Below, piece after piece: positions 43,853 through 50,694 of a stretch of 64,000 nucleotides of DNA (position 1 is the stretch's first letter; every line of letters starts with the position of its first letter). The stretch is from Mycolicibacter virginiensis (GTDB lineage Bacteria; Actinomycetota; Actinomycetes; Mycobacteriales; Mycobacteriaceae), in NCBI RefSeq assembly GCF_022374935.2, contig NZ_CP092430.2, forward strand, positions 4,526,001 to 4,590,000. The letters are read 5' to 3'. The position numbers and the translations under genes were made by a program. The notes below the pieces were generated by a model. The model was not told the origin of the DNA. It saw only the letters and a program-made list of their open reading frames with translations, and ran no database searches.

Positions 43853-44878
43853 GTGAACCTCGAAGCGGTCGCGGACTGGATGTCCGCCCAGGGCCTGGGC
43901 GAGGGCCCGCTGGAAAACGTCACCGAGCTGTCCGGCGGCACCCAGAACGTCATGCTGCAGTTCACCCGATCCGGTCGCAGCTACGTGTTGCGGCGCGGCC
44001 CACGGCATCTGCGACCGCGCAGCAACGCGGTGATGCTGCGGGAGACCCGGCTGCTGGCCGCGTTGGCCGGCACCGATGTGCCGCATCCGGGATTGATCGC
44101 GGTCTGCGACAACCCAGCGGTGCTCGGTGACGCGGTGTTCTACCTGATGGAGCCGGTCGACGGGTTCAACGCGAGTGGGGAACTGCCCGCGCTGCACGCC
44201 GGCGACCCGACGGTCCGGTACGGCATGGGACTGTCGATGGCCGACGCGCTGGCGAAGCTCGGTGCTGTCGACCATGTCGCGGTGGGATTGGCGGACTACG
44301 GCAAACCCGACGGCTTCCTGGAACGCCAAGTGCCGCGGTGGCTTTCCGAGCTGGACTCCTACCGGCAGTTCGAGAACTACCCCGGGCCCGACCTGCCCGG
44401 ACTCGACGACGTCGCCGACTGGCTGCAGCGCAATGTGCCGACATCCTGGCAGCCGGGGATCCTGCACGGTGACTATCACGCGGCCAACGTGATGTTCTCC
44501 CCCACCGGCCCGGAGGTGGCGGCCATCGTGGACTGGGAGATGTCGACCATCGGGGACCCACTGTTGGACCTGGGCTGGCTGCTGGCCACCTGGCGCCAGG
44601 ATGACGGGTCCAGCGTGTTCAGCCACACGCTGACCGGCATGGACGGGCTGGCCTCCCCCGATGACCTGGTGCAGCGCTACGCCGCGGGCAGCTCTCGCGA
44701 TCTGACGCACATCGGGTGGTACACGGTGATGGCCGCCTTCAAGCTGGCCATCGTGATCGAGGGCACCCTGGCACGGGCGTCGGCAGGCATGGCCCAGAAG
44801 GAAGTGGGCGATCAGTTGCACGAGGCCGCCGTCTGGCTCTTCGACCGGGCCCAGACCTGGATGGCGAGCGCGAAATGA
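43853..44878 (+). CDS. fadE36: Phosphotransferase-fold protein (FadE36/ACAD10 kinase-domain type)
   Basis: 341 residues. APH kinase fold: nucleotide loop TELSGGTQNVMLQFTRSGRS, Lys/Arg block YVLRRGP, catalytic HGDYHAANVMF (about 203-213) and IVDWEMSTIGDPLLDLGW with the metal Asp. This is the kinase half of ACAD10/11-like systems; the M. tuberculosis gene fadE36 (Rv3761c) is misnamed as an acyl-CoA dehydrogenase but has this fold. A role in phosphorylating hydroxyacyl-CoA is inferred from ACAD10/11. The stop overlaps the M20 gene (ATGA). Confidence 0.82.
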   Translation: MNLEAVADWMSAQGLGEGPLENVTELSGGTQNVMLQFTRSGRSYVLRRGPRHLRPRSNAVMLRETRLLAALAGTDVPHPGLIAVCDNPAVLGDAVFYLMEPVDGFNASGELPALHAGDPTVRYGMGLSMADALAKLGAVDHVAVGLADYGKPDGFLERQVPRWLSELDSYRQFENYPGPDLPGLDDVADWLQRNVPTSWQPGILHGDYHAANVMFSPTGPEVAAIVDWEMSTIGDPLLDLGWLLATWRQDDGSSVFSHTLTGMDGLASPDDLVQRYAAGSSRDLTHIGWYTVMAAFKLAIVIEGTLARASAGMAQKEVGDQLHEAAVWLFDRAQTWMASAK

Positions 44879-46119
44879 CGGAGCGTATCGACGACATCGA
44901 CAGGATCGTTGAGGCCGACACACGGCGTCTGGTCGACATCTTCAAAGACCTGCACCGCAACCCCGAGTTGGGCTTTCAGGAAGTGCGCACCGCGCGCACC
45001 GCCGCGCAGGCACTGGGCAACCTCGGCTTCACGGTGACCACCGGGATCGGTCGCACCGGCGTGGTGTCGGTGCTGGCCAACGGCCCCGGCCCAGTGGTGA
45101 TGTACCGGGCCGACATGGACGCGCTGGCAGTCCCCGAGACCACCGGCCTGGACTACGCCAGCAGCAACCCGGCACTGGGGCACATGTGCGGGCACGACGC
45201 GCACGTGACCTGGATGTTGGGGTTGGCCAAGGTGCTCGCCGAGACCACCGACTCCTGGGCGGGCACCGCGGTGCTGATCGGACAGCCCGCGGAGGAACTG
45301 ATCACCGGCGCCCAAGCCATGATCGACGCGGGCCTCTATGACGTCGCCCCCCGACCGGACGCTTTCCTGGCGCTGCACACCGCGCCGGTACCGGTCGGCA
45401 TGGTCGCCGCGGTCGGCGGAGAACGAATGGCCGGTACCGATCAGCTCGACATCGTGTTCCACGGCGTTGGCGGGCATGGGTCGATGCCCCAGCTGGCCCT
45501 CGACCCGGTGCTCATGGCGGCGCAGGCGGTCGTGCAGTTCCAAAGCATCGTCAGCCGGGCCGTCGCCCCCAGCGAGACGGCGGTGCTGACTGTCGGCTCG
45601 GTTCAGGCCGGCAGTACCTACAACGTCATCCCGGACCGGGCACTGCTCAAAGTCAATCTGCGCTGGTTCAACCCCGAGGTACGCGAAACGATGCTGGCCC
45701 GTATTCGGGCGATCTGCACGGGCATCGCACGCAGCTACGGCATGCCCGAAGACCGGCTGCCGGAGATCACCATGGCCGGTGGCGCCACCCCACTGGTCAA
45801 CGACACCGCGCTGACCGACCGGGTGGCAACCGCGCTGGGTGATCTGCTCGGCCCGGACAACGTCGTGCGTCAGCTTCCCGCGCTGACCGGCTCAGAGGAT
45901 TGCCACCTGCTCAAGGGACCGCACGTCGATGTACCGCTGGCATATCTGCTGGTCGGCGTGGCCGATCCACAGGTGTACGCGAAGTCCGCGGAAAAGGGCC
46001 AATTGTTCCCCTATACACCGCACTCGCCGGACTATATGGTCGACCTTTCCGCTATCCCGCTCGGAACCAGGATTGCAGCCCGTGCAATGCTTGAATTGCT
46101 TACTCCCAGTCGGTTTTAG
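44875..46119 (+). CDS. M20 family amidohydrolase (hippurate hydrolase-like)
   Basis: 414 residues from ATG 44875, overlapping the previous stop. M20D features: FKDLHRNPELGFQEVRTA, metal residues in LGHMCGHDAHVTWML and GQPAEELITGAQAMI (catalytic Glu pair), LALHTAPVPVG, then the dimerisation domain with FHGVGGHGSMPQLALDPV. It removes acyl groups from N-acyl amino acids or similar amides in the cytoplasm. Coupled to the kinase-fold gene, so the two may act on one substrate. No signal peptide. Confidence 0.88.
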   Translation: MTERIDDIDRIVEADTRRLVDIFKDLHRNPELGFQEVRTARTAAQALGNLGFTVTTGIGRTGVVSVLANGPGPVVMYRADMDALAVPETTGLDYASSNPALGHMCGHDAHVTWMLGLAKVLAETTDSWAGTAVLIGQPAEELITGAQAMIDAGLYDVAPRPDAFLALHTAPVPVGMVAAVGGERMAGTDQLDIVFHGVGGHGSMPQLALDPVLMAAQAVVQFQSIVSRAVAPSETAVLTVGSVQAGSTYNVIPDRALLKVNLRWFNPEVRETMLARIRAICTGIARSYGMPEDRLPEITMAGGATPLVNDTALTDRVATALGDLLGPDNVVRQLPALTGSEDCHLLKGPHVDVPLAYLLVGVADPQVYAKSAEKGQLFPYTPHSPDYMVDLSAIPLGTRIAARAMLELLTPSRF

Positions 46120-46189
46120 TACTGATTACACTCCGCCGAGTTTCTGAAACACTTGTGCGGTCCACGAAGACGAGCTAAGGTGTATTGCT

Positions 46190-46498
46190 GTGGACGATCG
46201 TCACAAAGACCCAACCGTCGTGTTGCCCTACCTCGTGGGCAGGCCGCTAGGAGCGACCGAGGTCTACGAGGCATTCGGCTATCGCAAGTCCGCCTATTAC
46301 AAGGCGGCCCATGAGGGCCGTCTGATCAGCGCGGACAATCTGATCCGAGTCGCCAGGTACTTCGGCCTCAACCCCGTCGACCTGCAGGTACGGTTCGGAT
46401 TGATCGAGCACGACGCCGTCGCCGAATACCTGGAGTCCTCAGCGCGGCCGCTGCGGCTGGGTGATCTGAAGGCGGATCTGGACAAACCGCCCGTCTAA
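46190..46498 (+). CDS. Small HTH (XRE-like) DNA-binding protein heading a three-membrane-protein cassette
   Basis: 102 residues from GTG 46190. TAAGGT (46176-46181) lies 8 bp upstream, so the mRNA may be leaderless. The middle, PLGATEVYEAFGYRKSAYYK and AHEGRLISADNLIRVARYFG, followed by LNPVDLQVRFGLI, has the helix-turn-helix rhythm of short XRE-type or phage-type regulators. No ligand domain follows. It precedes three paralogous membrane-protein genes on the same strand (29 bp gap), so it most likely regulates them. The exact family is not recognised. Confidence 0.65.
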   Translation: MDDRHKDPTVVLPYLVGRPLGATEVYEAFGYRKSAYYKAAHEGRLISADNLIRVARYFGLNPVDLQVRFGLIEHDAVAEYLESSARPLRLGDLKADLDKPPV

Positions 46499-46526
46499 CC
46501 GGACCGCCAGGAAGTACCGTCGACGC

Positions 46527-47282
46527 ATGACGTCGGCGTTAATTGGTGCCACCGTGGCGGTGGCGCTATACACCCTGTGGGTACGCCGTGATACGTGGTG
46601 GTCGCGGTGGGAGATCGGTATCACCCTGGCGATCGCATTGGAGACGCTCGCGCTCGTACTGATGTCGCCATGGGCAGCCGAAGCCCTTGGCCCGGCGCTG
46701 CACCACGTCACCCGGATATGGAACATCCAGCAGCTGGCCGGTCACATCTGCTTCGTCGTCGCCATCGCGGCCAACATCTACCACGTGCTGGCCCGCCTGG
46801 CCGACTTCGACCAATTCCGCCCGCTGTTCCGCCTGCACGTGCAGTTCCCCCTACAGGCCGGCGTGGTGGCGATGGTGGCAGTGTTCCTCGTCGCCGACGC
46901 CGGCTATCGGCCAGACGGTTTCTCATCGCTTGGGGGCGGCGGCGCCTGGGCGCGCGCATACTGGGTGCTGCTGTCCCTGATGCTGATCTACCTGTCCGGC
47001 TACGCGACGCGGGTGCTATCGATGCTGCGATCCGATCCACGCGCCAAAGAGACCGTCGAGCTCTACACGGCCTCCACGGCCTTCGCGGTGGCGGCCATCA
47101 TGGCGCTGTTGAGCAATGCTTGGTCCAAAGCCGATGTCAGCCCGCTGATTTGGCTGTGCGCATGTATATCCGTGGCGATCTTCGCCTACGGTTCGGCCCG
47201 TTCCTGGCAGGCCAAAGCCGCGTGGTTCACCAGCAGTGACCGTCCGGTTGCGCAGCAGAATCCTCCACAAGCCCTGTCGTGA
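46527..47282 (+). CDS. Membrane protein, tandem paralog A (about seven segments)
   Basis: 251 residues from ATG 46527. N-terminal segment is followed at once by the motif LYTLWVRRDTWWSRWE (about 13-28). About seven hydrophobic segments follow, with WNIQQLAGHICFVVAIAANI, YHVLARLADFDQF and, near the end, SARSWQAKAAWFT. All three motifs recur in B and C. No known transporter or enzyme signature is seen; the pattern of short polar loops suggests a small sensor or channel-like bundle. The overall layout reminds me of actinobacterial MAB_1171c-type loci (HTH plus membrane protein), but that is a weak analogy. Confidence 0.72.
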   Translation: MTSALIGATVAVALYTLWVRRDTWWSRWEIGITLAIALETLALVLMSPWAAEALGPALHHVTRIWNIQQLAGHICFVVAIAANIYHVLARLADFDQFRPLFRLHVQFPLQAGVVAMVAVFLVADAGYRPDGFSSLGGGGAWARAYWVLLSLMLIYLSGYATRVLSMLRSDPRAKETVELYTASTAFAVAAIMALLSNAWSKADVSPLIWLCACISVAIFAYGSARSWQAKAAWFTSSDRPVAQQNPPQALS

Positions 47283-47291
47283 GGGCACCCG

Positions 47292-48032
47292 ATGACGTCC
47301 GGAATCATTGTCACCACATTGGCAGTCGTCGCCTATAGCCTCTGGGTTCGCCGCGACACCTGGTGGACGCGCTGGGAGAACGCCGCCACCTTTGCGTTGG
47401 CGCTGGAAGCCGGTGCGCTGCTACTGATGTCGCCATGGGCCGGAGCCAAGATCGGCCCGGTGCTGCACAACGGCCTCGGGGTGTGGAACGTTCAACAGCT
47501 GATCGGCCACCTGTGCCTGATCGTGGCCGTCACGGCGAACATCTATCACATGCTGGTGCGCCTGGCCGACCCCGATCAAGTGCGGTTCATCATGCGCCGC
47601 CAGCTGATGATCCCGATATGGTTGGGCATCGCCGTGATGGTGCCGGCCTACCTGCGCTCCGACCAGGACTACCAGCCTGATGTGTTCGCCGCACCCAGGA
47701 CCGACGCCTGGATGGAGCTGTACCAGGTGGTCGGCTGTGCGCTGGTGGTCTACCTGAGCGCCTATGTCACCCGGCTGATGCTGACGCTGCGGCACGATCC
47801 GCGCGCCAAGCCCACCATCGACCTCTACCTGGTCTCGATGGCATTCGCCACGGCGGCATGCCTGATCGTGGTCGGTTCGACGTGGGTCGACGGTGACAAC
47901 GCCAGCCCCGGGATCTGGCTCTGCATCTGCTTGGCGGTGGGCACGTTCGCCTACGGGTCCGCGCGATCCTGGCAAGCCAAGAGCGCCTGGTTCACCGCCA
48001 ACGGCGACGAGTCGGTGATCGGCGCGCAATGA
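47292..48032 (+). CDS. Membrane protein, tandem paralog B
   Basis: 246 residues from ATG 47292, 9 bp after paralog A, with GAGGGCA upstream. Shares with A and C the start motif YSLWVRRDTWWTRWE, WNVQQLIGHLCLIVAVTANI, YHMLVRLADPDQV, the loop RHDPRAKPTIDLYL and the tail ARSWQAKSAWFT. About seven membrane segments. B is closer to C than to A in the YHMLVRLAD and RLMLTLRHDPRA blocks. Its stop overlaps the C start (ATGA). Function unknown. Confidence 0.72.
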   Translation: MTSGIIVTTLAVVAYSLWVRRDTWWTRWENAATFALALEAGALLLMSPWAGAKIGPVLHNGLGVWNVQQLIGHLCLIVAVTANIYHMLVRLADPDQVRFIMRRQLMIPIWLGIAVMVPAYLRSDQDYQPDVFAAPRTDAWMELYQVVGCALVVYLSAYVTRLMLTLRHDPRAKPTIDLYLVSMAFATAACLIVVGSTWVDGDNASPGIWLCICLAVGTFAYGSARSWQAKSAWFTANGDESVIGAQ

Positions 48033-48778
48033 CACCTGCGTTCATCCTGGCCACCGTAGCGATGGTCATCTACTGCCTGTGGGTTCGTCGCGACACCTGG
48101 TGGTCACGCTGGGAGGCCGGCGCCACCTTTGCCATCGCGATGGAGGGCCTTGCCCTGCTCTTGCTGACACCCTGGGCGGGCGCCGAGCTGGGGCCGACCC
48201 TCTACGCCCTGCTGGGGCGGTGGAACGCCCAGCAGGCACTCGGGCTGCTGTGCCTGTTCGCCGGGGTGATCGGAAACATCTACCACATGCTGGTGCGGCT
48301 CGCCGATCCCGCACACGTGGGGCCGATCATGCGCAAGCACCTCCTGGTACCGGTGGGCTTGTGCATGACGGTGATGCTGGTGGCGTTCTTCAAAACCGAC
48401 CGGGGCTTCGAGCCAGACCTGTTCGCCACGCTGTCCGGGGATCACTGGGTGACCGCCTTCGAGGTGACCGGCAGCGCGGTGTTGCTGTACCTGACCGGTT
48501 ACGTCGCTCGGCTGATGTTGTCGCTGCGGCACGACCACCGGGCCCGGACGACGCTCGTGCTGTACCTGGCGGCAATGACTTTCGCGATGGGGGCCTGCCT
48601 GGCCGGGATCATCTCGATCTGTATCGGCCGCGACGCCGGCCCGGCGATCTGGGCCTGCGTCTGTCTCTCGGTGTCGATCTTCGCCTATGGTCTGGCGCGG
48701 TCCTGGCAGGCCAAGAGGGCATGGTTCGCACCGAACGCCTCCGCGCGGCGCAGCGATAAACAAAGCGGGCACTCCTAG
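48029..48778 (+). CDS. Membrane protein, tandem paralog C
   Basis: 249 residues from ATG 48029, overlapping the stop of B. Motifs YCLWVRRDTWWSRWE, WNAQQALGLLCLFAGVIGNI, YHMLVRLADPAHV, RLMLSLRHDHRARTTL and ARSWQAKRAWFAP are retained, so the family-defining Trp/Arg positions are fixed while the helices have drifted. The tail is longer and basic. The three copies could assemble as a hetero-oligomer. It is convergent with the BlaI-type gene. Function unknown. Confidence 0.72.
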   Translation: MTPAFILATVAMVIYCLWVRRDTWWSRWEAGATFAIAMEGLALLLLTPWAGAELGPTLYALLGRWNAQQALGLLCLFAGVIGNIYHMLVRLADPAHVGPIMRKHLLVPVGLCMTVMLVAFFKTDRGFEPDLFATLSGDHWVTAFEVTGSAVLLYLTGYVARLMLSLRHDHRARTTLVLYLAAMTFAMGACLAGIISICIGRDAGPAIWACVCLSVSIFAYGLARSWQAKRAWFAPNASARRSDKQSGHS

Positions 48779-48802
48779 CCGACGAGGCGTGGCCCCGGTT
48801 CG

Positions 48803-49180
48803 TCAGGCGCCATCGAGTTCAGTCAACGCTCGCCTGAGCGCGGTGGCTTCGTCGGCGCCGACGCGTTCGACAAAGTGAACCAACGCGGCCTCGCGCCCGC
48901 CGGAGTCGGCGACCTGATCGAGCGCATACGACATCAGTTCGGCGACCAACTCGGCACGGCCCTGCGTCGGTACATACCGGTGGGCGCGATTGTCACGCCG
49001 CTGGACCACCAGGTTCTTCTTCGCAAGTCGTTGCAGCACAGTCATGATCGTGGTGTAGGCCAGGTTTCGCTTCACCGCCACCGACGCGTGGACCTCGCGG
49101 ACGGTCAACGCCCCCGACGCCGACCACAGGCACTCCATGACCGTGCGTTCGAGATCACCCAACCCAATGCGCGCAGCCAC
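48803..49180 (-). CDS. BlaI/MecI-type winged-helix repressor
   Basis: 125 residues from GTG 49180, with GGGAGG 9 bp upstream. GLGDLERTVMECLWSASGAL, TVREVHASVAVKRNLAYTTI and MTVLQRLAKKNLVVQRRDNR are the BlaI winged helix. The C-terminal dimerisation helices follow (ELVAELMSYALDQVADSGGR). In M. tuberculosis BlaI (Rv1846c) represses blaC and is paired with the protease BlaR; no BlaR or beta-lactamase gene is next to this copy. An IdeR-like box lies 48 bp upstream of the start. Confidence 0.87.
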   Translation of the reverse strand: MAARIGLGDLERTVMECLWSASGALTVREVHASVAVKRNLAYTTIMTVLQRLAKKNLVVQRRDNRAHRYVPTQGRAELVAELMSYALDQVADSGGREAALVHFVERVGADEATALRRALTELDGA

Positions 49181-49227
49181 AACCCATAACCTCCCGCGAT
49201 GATCCGGAACACGACTACATCCCGACA

Positions 49228-49246
49228 GAAGGTAAGGCTAACCTAA
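49228..49246 (-). promoter_or_regulatory. IdeR-like iron box upstream of the BlaI-type gene
   Basis: GAAGGTAAGGCTAACCTAA matches the IdeR/DtxR consensus TTAGGTTAGGCTAACCTAA at 16 of 19 positions, with the core AGGCTAACCT intact. It is 48-66 bp upstream of the GTG at 49180, a normal promoter distance. The only other genes nearby are tRNAs, whose terminator faces this region, so the BlaI-type gene is the likely target. Confidence 0.65.
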
Positions 49247-49304
49247 TTCAAAGAATTTGGGGTCCGGAGCGGCCACGCCGAGCCACACCCGGCCCATGAA
49301 ACAG

Positions 49305-49327
49305 AAAAACCCCGGCAAAAGCCGGGG
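49305..49327 (-). terminator. Rho-independent terminator after tRNA-Arg(ACG)
   Basis: On the minus strand CCCCGGC (49327-49321) pairs with GCCGGGG (49316-49310) around TTTT and is followed by TTTTT (49309-49305). A textbook intrinsic terminator for the two-tRNA transcript. Confidence 0.9.
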
Positions 49328-49350
49328 CAATCTGTCACCGATGAAAAATG

Positions 49351-49423
49351 TGCGCCCGAAGGGATTCGAACCCCCAACCTTCTGATCCGTAGTCAGATGC
49401 TCTATCCGTTGAGCTACGGGCGC
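49351..49423 (-). tRNA. tRNA-Arg (ACG anticodon)
   Basis: On the minus strand GCGCCCG (49423-49417) pairs with CGGGCGC (49358-49352), discriminator A. Anticodon loop CTACGGA gives ACG, the substrate of TadA (gene at 33900). T-arm GGGGGTTCGAATCCC is clear. 73 nt, CCA not encoded. Confidence 0.95.
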
Positions 49424-49460
49424 CTGTCTTCAGTTGTCGGTCGAGCAAGCCCGGCCGTTG

Positions 49461-49549
49461 CGGAGGCGAGAGGATTTGAACCTCCGGTCCCCCGTAAAGG
49501 GGACAACTCATTAGCAGTGAGTCCCATTCGGCCGCTCTGGCACGCCTCC
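49461..49549 (-). tRNA. tRNA-Ser (GCT anticodon)
   Basis: On the minus strand GGAGGCG (49549-49543) pairs with CGCCTCC (49468-49462), discriminator G. The anticodon stem-loop ACTCACTGCTAATGAGT gives GCT. Long variable arm with CCCC/GGGG stem, T-arm GGAGGTTCAAATCC. 89 nt. It lies 37 bp upstream of tRNA-Arg on the same strand, and both end at the terminator 49305-49327. Confidence 0.95.
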
Positions 49550-49647
49550 TCGAACTCGTTGAGGGTACCGGATCACTCCCCCAGTTCTGAAACCGCGGGG
49601 TGAGTGCGGGGAAGTAAGCCGCCGACGACACACATATGCTGTGGTCC

Positions 49648-50694
49648 GTGACCGCCCGACTGCGCCCGGAGATCGCCGCGCTGCCAGCCTACGTCGAAGG
49701 TAAGACGGTCCCCGGATCGATCAAACTCGCCAGCAACGAGACGGTGTTCCCCCCGCTGCCCAGCGTGGCCAAAGCCGTCGAAGCTGCCCTGGCCACCACC
49801 AACCGCTACCCGGACAACGGCTACGCCGCGCTGCGCGACCGGCTGGCCGAGCATGTCGGGTTCGGCCGAGAGCACGTGGCGGCCGGCTGCGGATCGGTGA
49901 GCCTGTGCCAGCAGCTCATCCAGATCAGTGCCGGCGCCGGCGACGAGGTGGTGTTCGGGTGGCGCAGCTTCGAGATCTACCCGCTTCAGGTACGCACCGC
50001 CGGCGCCGTTCCGGTGCAGGTGCCGCTGCGCGAGCACACCTACGACCTGGACGCGATGCTGGCCGCCATCACCGAGCGCACCCGGCTGATCTTCGTCTGC
50101 AACCCGAACAATCCGACCTCCACCGTCGTCGACCCCGACGCGCTGGAACGGTTCGTCGCCGCGGTGCCACCGCACATTCTGATCGCCATCGACGAGGCCT
50201 ACGTGGAGTACATCCGCGACGGCCTGCTCCCCGACAGCCTGGGACTCGTGCGCCGCCACGCGAATGTGGTTGTGCTGCGCACGTTTTCAAAAGCGTACGG
50301 GTTGGCCGGTCTGCGTCTGGGCTACGCGGTCGGCGATCCGGAGATCATCACCGCACTGGGCAAGGTCTACGTGCCGTTCACGGTGTCCAGCGTGGCGCAG
50401 GTCGCCGGGATCGCCTCCCTGGACGCCGCCGAAGAGCTGATGGCGCGCACCGACGCGGTGGTCGCCGAGCGGGCCCGGGTGTCAGCAGCGCTGCGCGAAG
50501 CCGGGTTCGAGCTGCCGGATTCGCAGTCCAACTTCGTGTGGCTGCCGCTGGCCGAGCGCACCGCCGACTTCGTAGCCGCTGCCGCGGCGGCCCGCATCGT
50601 CGTCCGCCCCTACGGGCAAGACGGAGTCCGGGTGACCATCGGCGCGCCGGAGGAGAACGACGCGCTGTTACGGTTCGCACAGACGTACCGCTGA
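49648..50694 (+). CDS. hisC2: Histidinol-phosphate/aromatic aminotransferase (HisC2, Rv3772 type)
   Basis: 348 residues from GTG 49648 (VTARLRPEIAALPAY), which matches the HisC2 start I recall; ATG 49636 would add four residues. PLP fold type I: KLASNETVFPPLPSV, GCGSVSLCQQLIQ, FVCNPNNPTSTVV, IDEAYVEYIRDG, and the PLP Lys in RTFSKAYGLAGLRLGY. HisC2-type enzymes act on histidinol phosphate or phenylalanine/tyrosine; Rv3772 homologs are often called phenylalanine aminotransferase. tyrA in this window supplies the related keto acid. Confidence 0.9.
   Translation: MTARLRPEIAALPAYVEGKTVPGSIKLASNETVFPPLPSVAKAVEAALATTNRYPDNGYAALRDRLAEHVGFGREHVAAGCGSVSLCQQLIQISAGAGDEVVFGWRSFEIYPLQVRTAGAVPVQVPLREHTYDLDAMLAAITERTRLIFVCNPNNPTSTVVDPDALERFVAAVPPHILIAIDEAYVEYIRDGLLPDSLGLVRRHANVVVLRTFSKAYGLAGLRLGYAVGDPEIITALGKVYVPFTVSSVAQVAGIASLDAAEELMARTDAVVAERARVSAALREAGFELPDSQSNFVWLPLAERTADFVAAAAAARIVVRPYGQDGVRVTIGAPEENDALLRFAQTYR

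Follow-up and report, generated by a model that had tools for sequence, protein, structure and literature searches.

A chromosomal phage-type repressor gene followed by three tandem genes for predicted seven-helix proteins in Mycolicibacter virginiensis resembles an immunity-locus gene pair of temperate mycobacteriophages

Introduction

In the LytTR systems HdrRM and BrsRM of streptococci, the operon partner of a DNA-binding regulator is an integral membrane protein that inhibits it. In the cluster K phage Adephagia, a small repressor (gene 43) is followed by a predicted seven-helix protein (gene 42), for which the published account predicts 7 transmembrane domains and gives no known function (PMC11373665). 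The pairs of this kind read here include CrimD 43/42, ZoeJ 45/44, and Bask21 56/55. A further point of comparison is the MAB_1171c family (NCBIfam NF042915), whose gene, in the loci that could be read, follows an XRE-type HTH gene and a gene for a protein of ~190 aa.

Here we describe a cassette in a 64,000-nt stretch of M. virginiensis DNA (contig NZ_CP092430.2; hereafter the window). Like Adephagia 43/42 it has a small repressor and then a seven-helix protein (7TM); unlike the phage pair it is chromosomal, has no integrase seen adjoining, and combines one repressor with three membrane genes (A, B, and C). It is like HdrRM/BrsRM in pairing a regulator gene with a membrane protein gene, although the protein families are unrelated.

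Results

Locus layout

A preliminary description of this DNA proposed an HTH gene followed by a tandem triplet of membrane protein genes, and four plus-strand open reading frames bear this out (Table 1). Of the intergenic gaps it gave (29, 9, and -4 bp), the second and third stand, C overlapping B by 4 bases, while the gap between the HTH gene and A measures 28 bp. A leaderless GTG start is plausible for the repressor. The TAAGGT of a candidate promoter lies 8 nt 5' of this GTG and is kept in 5/5 aligned triplet-type loci; a consensus promoter scan of 46050-49340 found no sigma-70-type site. An inverted-repeat operator GGTCCAC/GTGGAC over the start was also considered. With a spacing of 24 there is one exact pair, and since the repeat with two mismatches is at chance level, we claim no operator here. 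The ileS-locus branch described below keeps a TCCCA-TGGGA inverted repeat upstream.

Table 1. Features of the cassette and its flanks (window positions)
Feature	Position	Strand	Remarks
M20-family peptidase/amidohydrolase (upstream flank)	44878..46119	+	Pfam Peptidase_M20; ORF readable from 44716
Promoter candidate	46153..46181	+	TTGTGC (46153-46158), 17 nt, TAAGGT (46176-46181); weak sigma-70 consensus match
HTH repressor gene	46190..46498	+	GTG start, 102 aa; mycobacteriophage immunity-repressor family PHROG 1746
Repressor C-terminal tail	46454..46495	+	RLGDLKADLDKPPV (last 14 residues before stop)
Membrane paralog A	46527..47282	+	251 aa, PHROG 950 (E 2.6e-55)
Membrane paralog B	47292..48032	+	246 aa, PHROG 950 (E 7.9e-56)
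Membrane paralog C	48029..48778	+	249 aa, PHROG 950 (E 8.6e-47)
BlaI-type (Penicillinase_R) regulator (downstream flank)	48803..49180	-	E 7.7e-27
tRNA-Arg(acg)	49350..49423	-	3' end towards cassette

The immediate flanks carry APH, M20 peptidase, BlaI, two tRNAs, and an aminotransferase, with no integrase or phage genes seen among them. The BlaI-type neighbor with an iron box, also part of the preliminary description, was recovered: an IdeR-box-like site at 49228-49246 has 3 mismatches out of 19 against a consensus, and 0/100 shuffles matched it. A search of 44000-50000 for RNA elements found the two tRNAs and nothing else. At the cassette-free sites of three other genomes (G070, G093, and G116) the amidohydrolase gene adjoins tRNA-Arg, tRNA-Ser, and the aminotransferase gene, and the BlaI-type gene is likewise missing (tblastn, no match). 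Duplication of an attachment site was considered and given less weight; the first 14 or more bases of tRNA-Arg(acg) have no second copy anywhere else in the window. Elsewhere the window genome has a fourth 7TM copy and a second, orphan repressor.

Phage relatives of both gene families

The cassette had been taken as unassigned, which no longer holds: residues 1-86 of the HTH protein match the phage repressor family PHROG 1746 (E 6.5e-28), and A, B, and C match PHROG 950, with the function label "unknown", over nearly their full length. Both families list viral members, whereas the window genes are host chromosomal. In tblastn searches the HTH protein matched 319 phage records, with identity up to 49.5% among the matches listed, and paralog B matched 300. 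A repressor-type gene adjoins the membrane gene in 22 out of the 22 phage loci read, 17 of them tandem downstream and five convergent (MalagasyRose, prophiGD15-1, prophiT48-1, prophiGD02-2, and Settecandela). As judged from sequence, the cassette is a chromosomal form of the repressor and PHROG 950 pair kept at the immunity locus of temperate mycobacteriophages. Sequence also shows that both parts belong to phage families and are linked, that the tail is conserved, and that the membrane gene is triplicated.

The HTH protein was modeled with six helices within residues 8-84. Its matches to CI/PrgX-type HTH proteins were weak, and a sequence search against solved structures gave two chance-level matches.

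The membrane paralogs

The four motifs said earlier to be common to the paralogs (LWVRRDTWW.RWE, WN.QQ, NIYH.L.RLAD, and SWQAK.AWF) are all found in A, B, and C. Identity is 51% for B-A, 53% for B-C, and 47% for A-C; a search of the same genome with A returned B at E 1.0e-78 and C at E 1.3e-67, so the likeness of the three goes beyond chance. Each has an ortholog in the genome of another species (G022; 89, 90, and 86% identical, respectively), and A, B, and C diverged from one another before the split of the two species.

Of the three, paralog B was modeled; its seven helices form a bundle predicted with high confidence (pLDDT 87.7, pTM 0.84). The 7TM is predicted to have its N-terminus outside, a GPCR-like arrangement of the seven helices, and a conserved cytoplasmic face: conservation is 2.05 bits on the inner side vs. 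1.56 outside (p 7e-4), and R20, R90, and W227 are invariant in 39/39 rows. Foldseek comparison with GPCRs gave 5-14% identity among the rows listed and no significant E-value, and a fold in common with the seven-helix domains of class C and other GPCRs would say nothing on function. The 7TM profile found nothing at E <= 1 by sequence among solved structures, and paralog B had no match at E <= 0.01 in 72,556 plasmid records.

A simple transporter role for A, B, and C was considered and given less weight, as they match no characterised transporter and MAB_1171c is remote; the statement that they bear no transporter or enzyme signature agrees with our finding of none that is characterised. Over the membrane region the three are remotely homologous to the MAB_1171c family, but they do not have the C-terminal part (224-362) of the 362-position NF042915 model. 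B is the one window protein out of four listed for this model, at 27.4 bits, below the curated cut-off of 100 bits; it covers positions 5-223 and stops at 246 aa.

Distribution in host genomes

Genus-wide and class-wide surveys were carried out on samples of genomes. Among 118 genomes of the genus, searched at E <= 1e-10 and E <= 1e-8, 69 have both genes, 2 have the membrane gene only, none has the HTH gene only, and 47 have neither. Linkage of the two genes in other genomes, on which the preliminary description depended, was found: a membrane gene lies within 600 bp of 76 out of 87 HTH matches, in 74 with the HTH gene upstream on the same strand. The cassette order is kept in related genomes. 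Three or four membrane copies behind one HTH gene are restricted to 7 out of 71 sampled genomes with a membrane gene (one quadruplet included). The commonest host form is one HTH gene with one membrane gene, and this single pair is at the same chromosomal place in 6/8 host loci read.

A conserved C-terminal tail on the repressors

Beyond a variable linker, the repressors finish in a conserved x-P-P-L/V/I-COOH tail, which is new here. A PP[LVIM] end is present in 105 out of 115 distinct 7TM-adjacent HTH proteins of the window repressor's family (distinct by the last 60 residues, with L200-L210 counted apart), in 4/5 further host pairs, and in 96 of the 120 database relatives listed (of 226). 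Repressors outside the family profile also carry it, namely those of Bask21 (PHROG 2745), Wanda, MalagasyRose, and prophiGD15-1, and so do 4/4 orphan host HTH proteins read. It is not at the end of 9 out of 22 phage repressors adjoining a 7TM gene.

In one chromosomal branch, the ileS-locus type, 73 out of 74 distinct proteins end in DAPPL. For this sample 80 of 124 loci were kept, and in 77 of the 80 an HTH protein was picked out by a motif filter (74 distinct); the loci it missed were L116 (no HTH protein found), L133 (ends in DAPPL), and L134 (cut short). Identity in these proteins is 0.995 over the last five residues vs. 0.32 in the linker, and divergence by codon position is 0.026/0.000/0.569, which indicates selection at the amino-acid level. 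The possibility that the tail is a by-product of the downstream gene, as an RNA or ribosome-binding artefact, was rejected because third codon positions diverge freely and orphan genes retain the tail.

Among the controls, the tail was found in 0/15 neighboring Cro/HTH proteins, in 0/4 more, and in 1/331 other ORFs, and it was absent from the Aleemily and REQ2 repressors, which have no 7TM neighbor, and from the unrelated CarolAnn repressor. In the open-access literature searched, we found neither a C-terminal tail common to phage repressors nor the repressor-7TM pair as a conserved host locus.

Discussion

The conserved tail is a hint, short of proof, that the repressor is held or read by the membrane protein. 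The explanation we prefer, and put forward tentatively, is that the repressor tail docks on the seven-helix protein and that a membrane or envelope signal acts through this contact. The small, putatively CI-type repressor would bind DNA near its own start and so regulate itself, its flexible C-terminal tail would dock on the cytoplasmic face of the 7TM, and the docked 7TM would tether, release, or stabilize the repressor according to the signal. In the window genome three diverged seven-helix partners, A, B, and C, may serve one repressor. They may form a hetero-oligomer or each answer a different signal, as the preliminary description proposed.

It is possible, though doubtful, that the tail is unrelated to the 7TM and acts as a protease or chaperone signal or as a dimer clasp tuning the repressor level, with the 7TM a separate co-transcribed transporter or stress protein. 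The orphan host HTH proteins that keep the tail (4/4) and the phage repressors beside a 7TM that end otherwise (9/22) would fit this, as would the remote match of the 7TM family to the MAB_1171c "putative transporter" profile (hhalign 95.8%, E 6.9e-9); in the accessible part of one study, a MAB_1171c mutant forms about half the biofilm and has lower clarithromycin and cefoxitin MICs (PMC8707978). However, "transporter" is a label only, different DNA-binding families have the same tail when adjoining this 7TM, and 0/69 HTH-positive genomes are without a 7TM gene.

We consider it unlikely that the 7TM serves superinfection exclusion, whereby it would be expressed with the repressor in lysogens and keep the DNA of other phages from entering. 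The chromosomal copies would then be a domesticated exclusion and immunity module whose range is broadened by triplication. Kinship or exchange with phage genes speaks for such a role, an arms race would fit the tandem diversification, and Adephagia gene 42, the predicted 7TM by repressor 43, is reported to be expressed at a low level in a lysogen (PMC11373665). In the same report, however, about 60 phages did not distinguish the Adephagia lysogen from the non-lysogen. Moreover, the conserved face of the 7TM is the putative cytoplasmic one, the single pair keeps its chromosomal place in 6/8 host loci read, none of the four window proteins has a PADLOC match at E <= 0.1, and exclusion leaves the repressor tail unexplained. 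That the cassette is a decaying prophage remnant, no longer functional, next to a tRNA attachment site is very improbable: the corresponding sites of G070, G093, and G116 do lack the insert between the amidohydrolase gene and tRNA-Arg, but all four frames are open, the A, B, and C orthologs are retained in G022 (89, 90, and 86%), 7 genomes have three or four copies, and no duplicated tRNA end was found.

Our preferred explanation may be carried further, to a proposal that we regard as unlikely as a whole: mycobacteria and their temperate phages would have a common membrane-coupled switch, in which a GPCR-like receptor takes the repressor tail into its cytoplasmic face like the G-protein tail in a GPCR, and lysogeny or a host regulon answers an envelope signal, the triplet being one repressor with three receptors. 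The PHROG 950-type gene occurs in ~300 mycobacteriophage records, next to a repressor wherever read, and is without an assigned function. If the tail docks on the 7TM, temperate phages would use a receptor-like protein to sense how the host envelope stands, and the switch would also be present in mycobacterial chromosomes, there acting on host genes.

Organization and family membership of the window cassette

The four ORFs lie on the + strand where the preliminary description had placed them (Table), and the gaps of 9 and -4 bases between the genes for the tandem membrane proteins A, B, and C (251, 246, and 249 aa) are as it reported; the gap behind the gene of the 102-aa HTH protein is 28 bases, not 29. 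The motifs quoted for the membrane proteins (for example WN-QQ) are present in all three, at a pairwise identity of 47-53%. A Pfam search of the window proteins gave no match above cut-off, and NCBIfam placed B weakly under MAB_1171c (27.4 bits vs. a cut-off of 100). In PHROGs the HTH protein belongs to PHROG 1746 "transcriptional repressor" (E 6.5e-28) and A, B, and C belong to PHROG 950, a family of unknown function (E 2.6e-55, 7.9e-56, and 8.6e-47, respectively). The HTH protein matched 319 phage records by tblastn, 313 of them Mycobacterium; among the matches listed, most are annotated as immunity or transcriptional repressor and identity is at most 49.5%. B matched 300 records, all from Mycobacterium phages, with at most 35.7% identity among the matches listed. 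Among the database relatives of A/B/C, several bear the name "GP55 protein."

The genome of the window (G000; one contig, 4,980,142 bases) also carries a fourth membrane paralog with no HTH match beside it and a second HTH protein with no membrane paralog beside it. Such orphan HTH matches are present likewise in the six other triplet-type genomes. The fourth paralog adjoins a long protein whose end is rich in glycine; its surroundings are the same in genome G022. Next to the cassette, the BlaI-type regulator is possibly under iron control, judged from a candidate IdeR-box-like site upstream.

Table. Coordinates of the cassette and of related or neighboring features
Feature	Sequence	Position	Strand	Remark
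HTH-A-B-C cassette	window	46190-48778	+
BlaI-type gene	window	48803-49180	-	downstream flank
IdeR-box-like site	window	49228-49246		3 mismatches in 19; 0/100 shuffles
Fourth membrane paralog (L004/L010)	G000:C1	1796645-1797343	-	42% identical to A
Second HTH protein (L009)	G000:C1	2462302-2462613	-	70% identical to cassette HTH
HTH and membrane genes, apparently broken (L204)	G002:C1	2279000-2289000
Face-to-face HTH and membrane genes	G070:C6	268180-269274

Linkage in host genomes and phages

The repressor and the membrane protein are linked across the genus. Among 118 genomes (thresholds E <= 1e-10 and 1e-8), the membrane protein was found in 71 and the HTH protein in 69; both occur in 69, the membrane protein only in two (G002 and G036), the HTH protein only in none, and neither in 47. 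With a more sensitive profile, G002 and G036 too showed HTH-like pieces next to the membrane gene. A membrane match lies within 600 bp of 76 of the 87 HTH matches, and the HTH gene of 74 of these lies upstream in the same orientation. The 99 membrane matches form 83 loci (75 single, 1 double, 6 triple, and 1 quadruple), of which the sole double locus is a broken gene in G002; an HTH gene stands in front in every triplet or quadruplet genome (G000, G016, G022, G072, G085, G100, and G077). At L204 in G002 both genes look broken, as though lost together. Two host pairs (L038 and one in G070) are arranged face-to-face, not in tandem, like the M. abscessus prophages read.

The commonest single pair, at eight loci (L042-L049; gene names assigned from translations, the L044 HTH gene being known from the genus HTH search only), is flanked at six of them by ileS on one side and a serine-hydrolase/methylmalonyl-CoA mutase group on the other; the remaining two have the ileS side alone in common. 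We regard this pair as inherited with the chromosome rather than as a recent prophage. Its membrane profile matched only this genus, in four genomes, among 148 genomes across the class (E <= 1e-6). An inverted repeat, TCCCA-n-A-a-n-TGGGA, is conserved with further blocks upstream of the HTH gene (alignment of 74 loci, L064-L143) and is a candidate operator.

In 17 of 22 phage loci with a membrane gene, the two genes share a strand, with the membrane gene immediately downstream of the repressor gene (CrimD, Bask21, Gaia, Nebkiss, Aminay, MissDaisy, Eponine, Wanda, Whirlwind, ZoeJ, SirPhilip, Anaya, Marshawn, Nutello, JoeDirt, Crossroads, and Lumos), and an annotated integrase gene comes next in 11 of the 17. 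The two genes are convergent in MalagasyRose, prophiGD15-1, prophiT48-1, prophiGD02-2, and Settecandela, the repressor-type gene being labeled hypothetical in MalagasyRose and Settecandela. Two HTH-positive phage loci have no membrane neighbor of this kind next to the HTH gene, those of Gordonia phage Aleemily and Rhodococcus phage REQ2. The Bask21 repressor belongs to a different family, PHROG 2745; the membrane gene was thus kept while the DNA-binding part was swapped.

Triplet site and phylogeny

In G070, G093, and G116 the amidohydrolase, tRNA-Arg, tRNA-Ser, and aminotransferase genes adjoin one another, with neither a BlaI match nor a membrane match at the site; the cassette was therefore either gained or lost next to tRNA-Arg. 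A search for a duplicated tRNA end was negative. The tree separates A from B and C and places every copy nearest its G022 ortholog (89, 90, and 86% identity), so the triplication predates that split. Triplet, type-II, and orphan copies form one clade (support 100/99). At a fork that the tree does not resolve, the ileS-type copies group with those of phages Bask21, Gaia, MalagasyRose, and prophiGD15-1. Host-phage exchange, in one direction or the other, is likely.

A conserved tail on the repressors

A variable linker leads to a short, conserved C-terminal tail in these repressors. The 74 distinct ileS-type proteins end in DAPPL (73) or DAPAL (1), with an identity of 0.995 over the last five residues, 0.32 in the linker (21-41 aa), and 0.86 in the DNA-binding part. 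The tail is conserved under selection at the amino-acid level, divergence over the last five codons being 0.026, 0.000, and 0.569 at the three codon positions. Among 115 distinct HTH proteins adjacent to a seven-helix gene, 105 end in PP[LVIM] and 109 in P[PGS][LVIM]; five further host pairs end in PP[LVIM] (4) or PSL (1). The tail is absent from the Aleemily and REQ2 repressors. For the window HTH protein, 96 of the 120 database relatives listed (of 226) end in PP[LVIM] and 15 more in P[SA][VIL]. Phage repressors beside the membrane gene carry the tail in 10/22 (strict) or 13/22 (relaxed), and it is found in 0/15 neighboring Cro/HTH proteins and 1/331 other ORFs (Fisher, 13/22 vs. Cro/HTH p 2e-4, vs. 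other ORFs p 4e-17, related records not being independent).

Possible mechanism and wider kin

We tentatively prefer a mechanism in which the membrane protein, with its predicted seven-helix fold and topology, tethers or releases the repressor; the tail and the membrane protein would meet. Alternatively, the tail may serve a purpose that does not involve the membrane protein, since orphan repressors retain it (4/4 of those read among the 11 HTH matches without an adjacent membrane gene, L009 as NRPPL) and five phage repressors beside a membrane gene lack it outright. The Adephagia study (PMC11373665) describes gene 42, which adjoins repressor gene 43, as coding for a protein with seven predicted helices and unknown function. 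In a lysogen it is expressed at a low level together with the repressor, and it is one of the genes whose overexpression was toxic or inhibitory. Superinfection exclusion by the seven-helix protein is weakened, since in the same study a panel of about 60 phages showed no difference on the Adephagia lysogen.

Profile comparison links the membrane region of MAB_1171c to the A/B/C family (95.8%, E 6.9e-9). Of 118 genomes of the class, 16 have MAB_1171c-family loci (E <= 1e-20), and those loci that could be read (among L145-L171) have an XRE-type HTH gene and a gene of about 190 aa in front. Of the scanned ~190-aa proteins, one is weakly IrrE-like, at a sub-threshold E of 0.0084, and one had no match. 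The readable MAB_1171c "transporter" loci look like three-gene cassettes of an XRE HTH protein, a ~190-aa protein, and a seven-helix protein with a C-terminal domain. Given this remote kinship and the HTH gene in front of MAB_1171c, the pairing of an HTH protein with a seven-helix protein may be an older actinobacterial theme.
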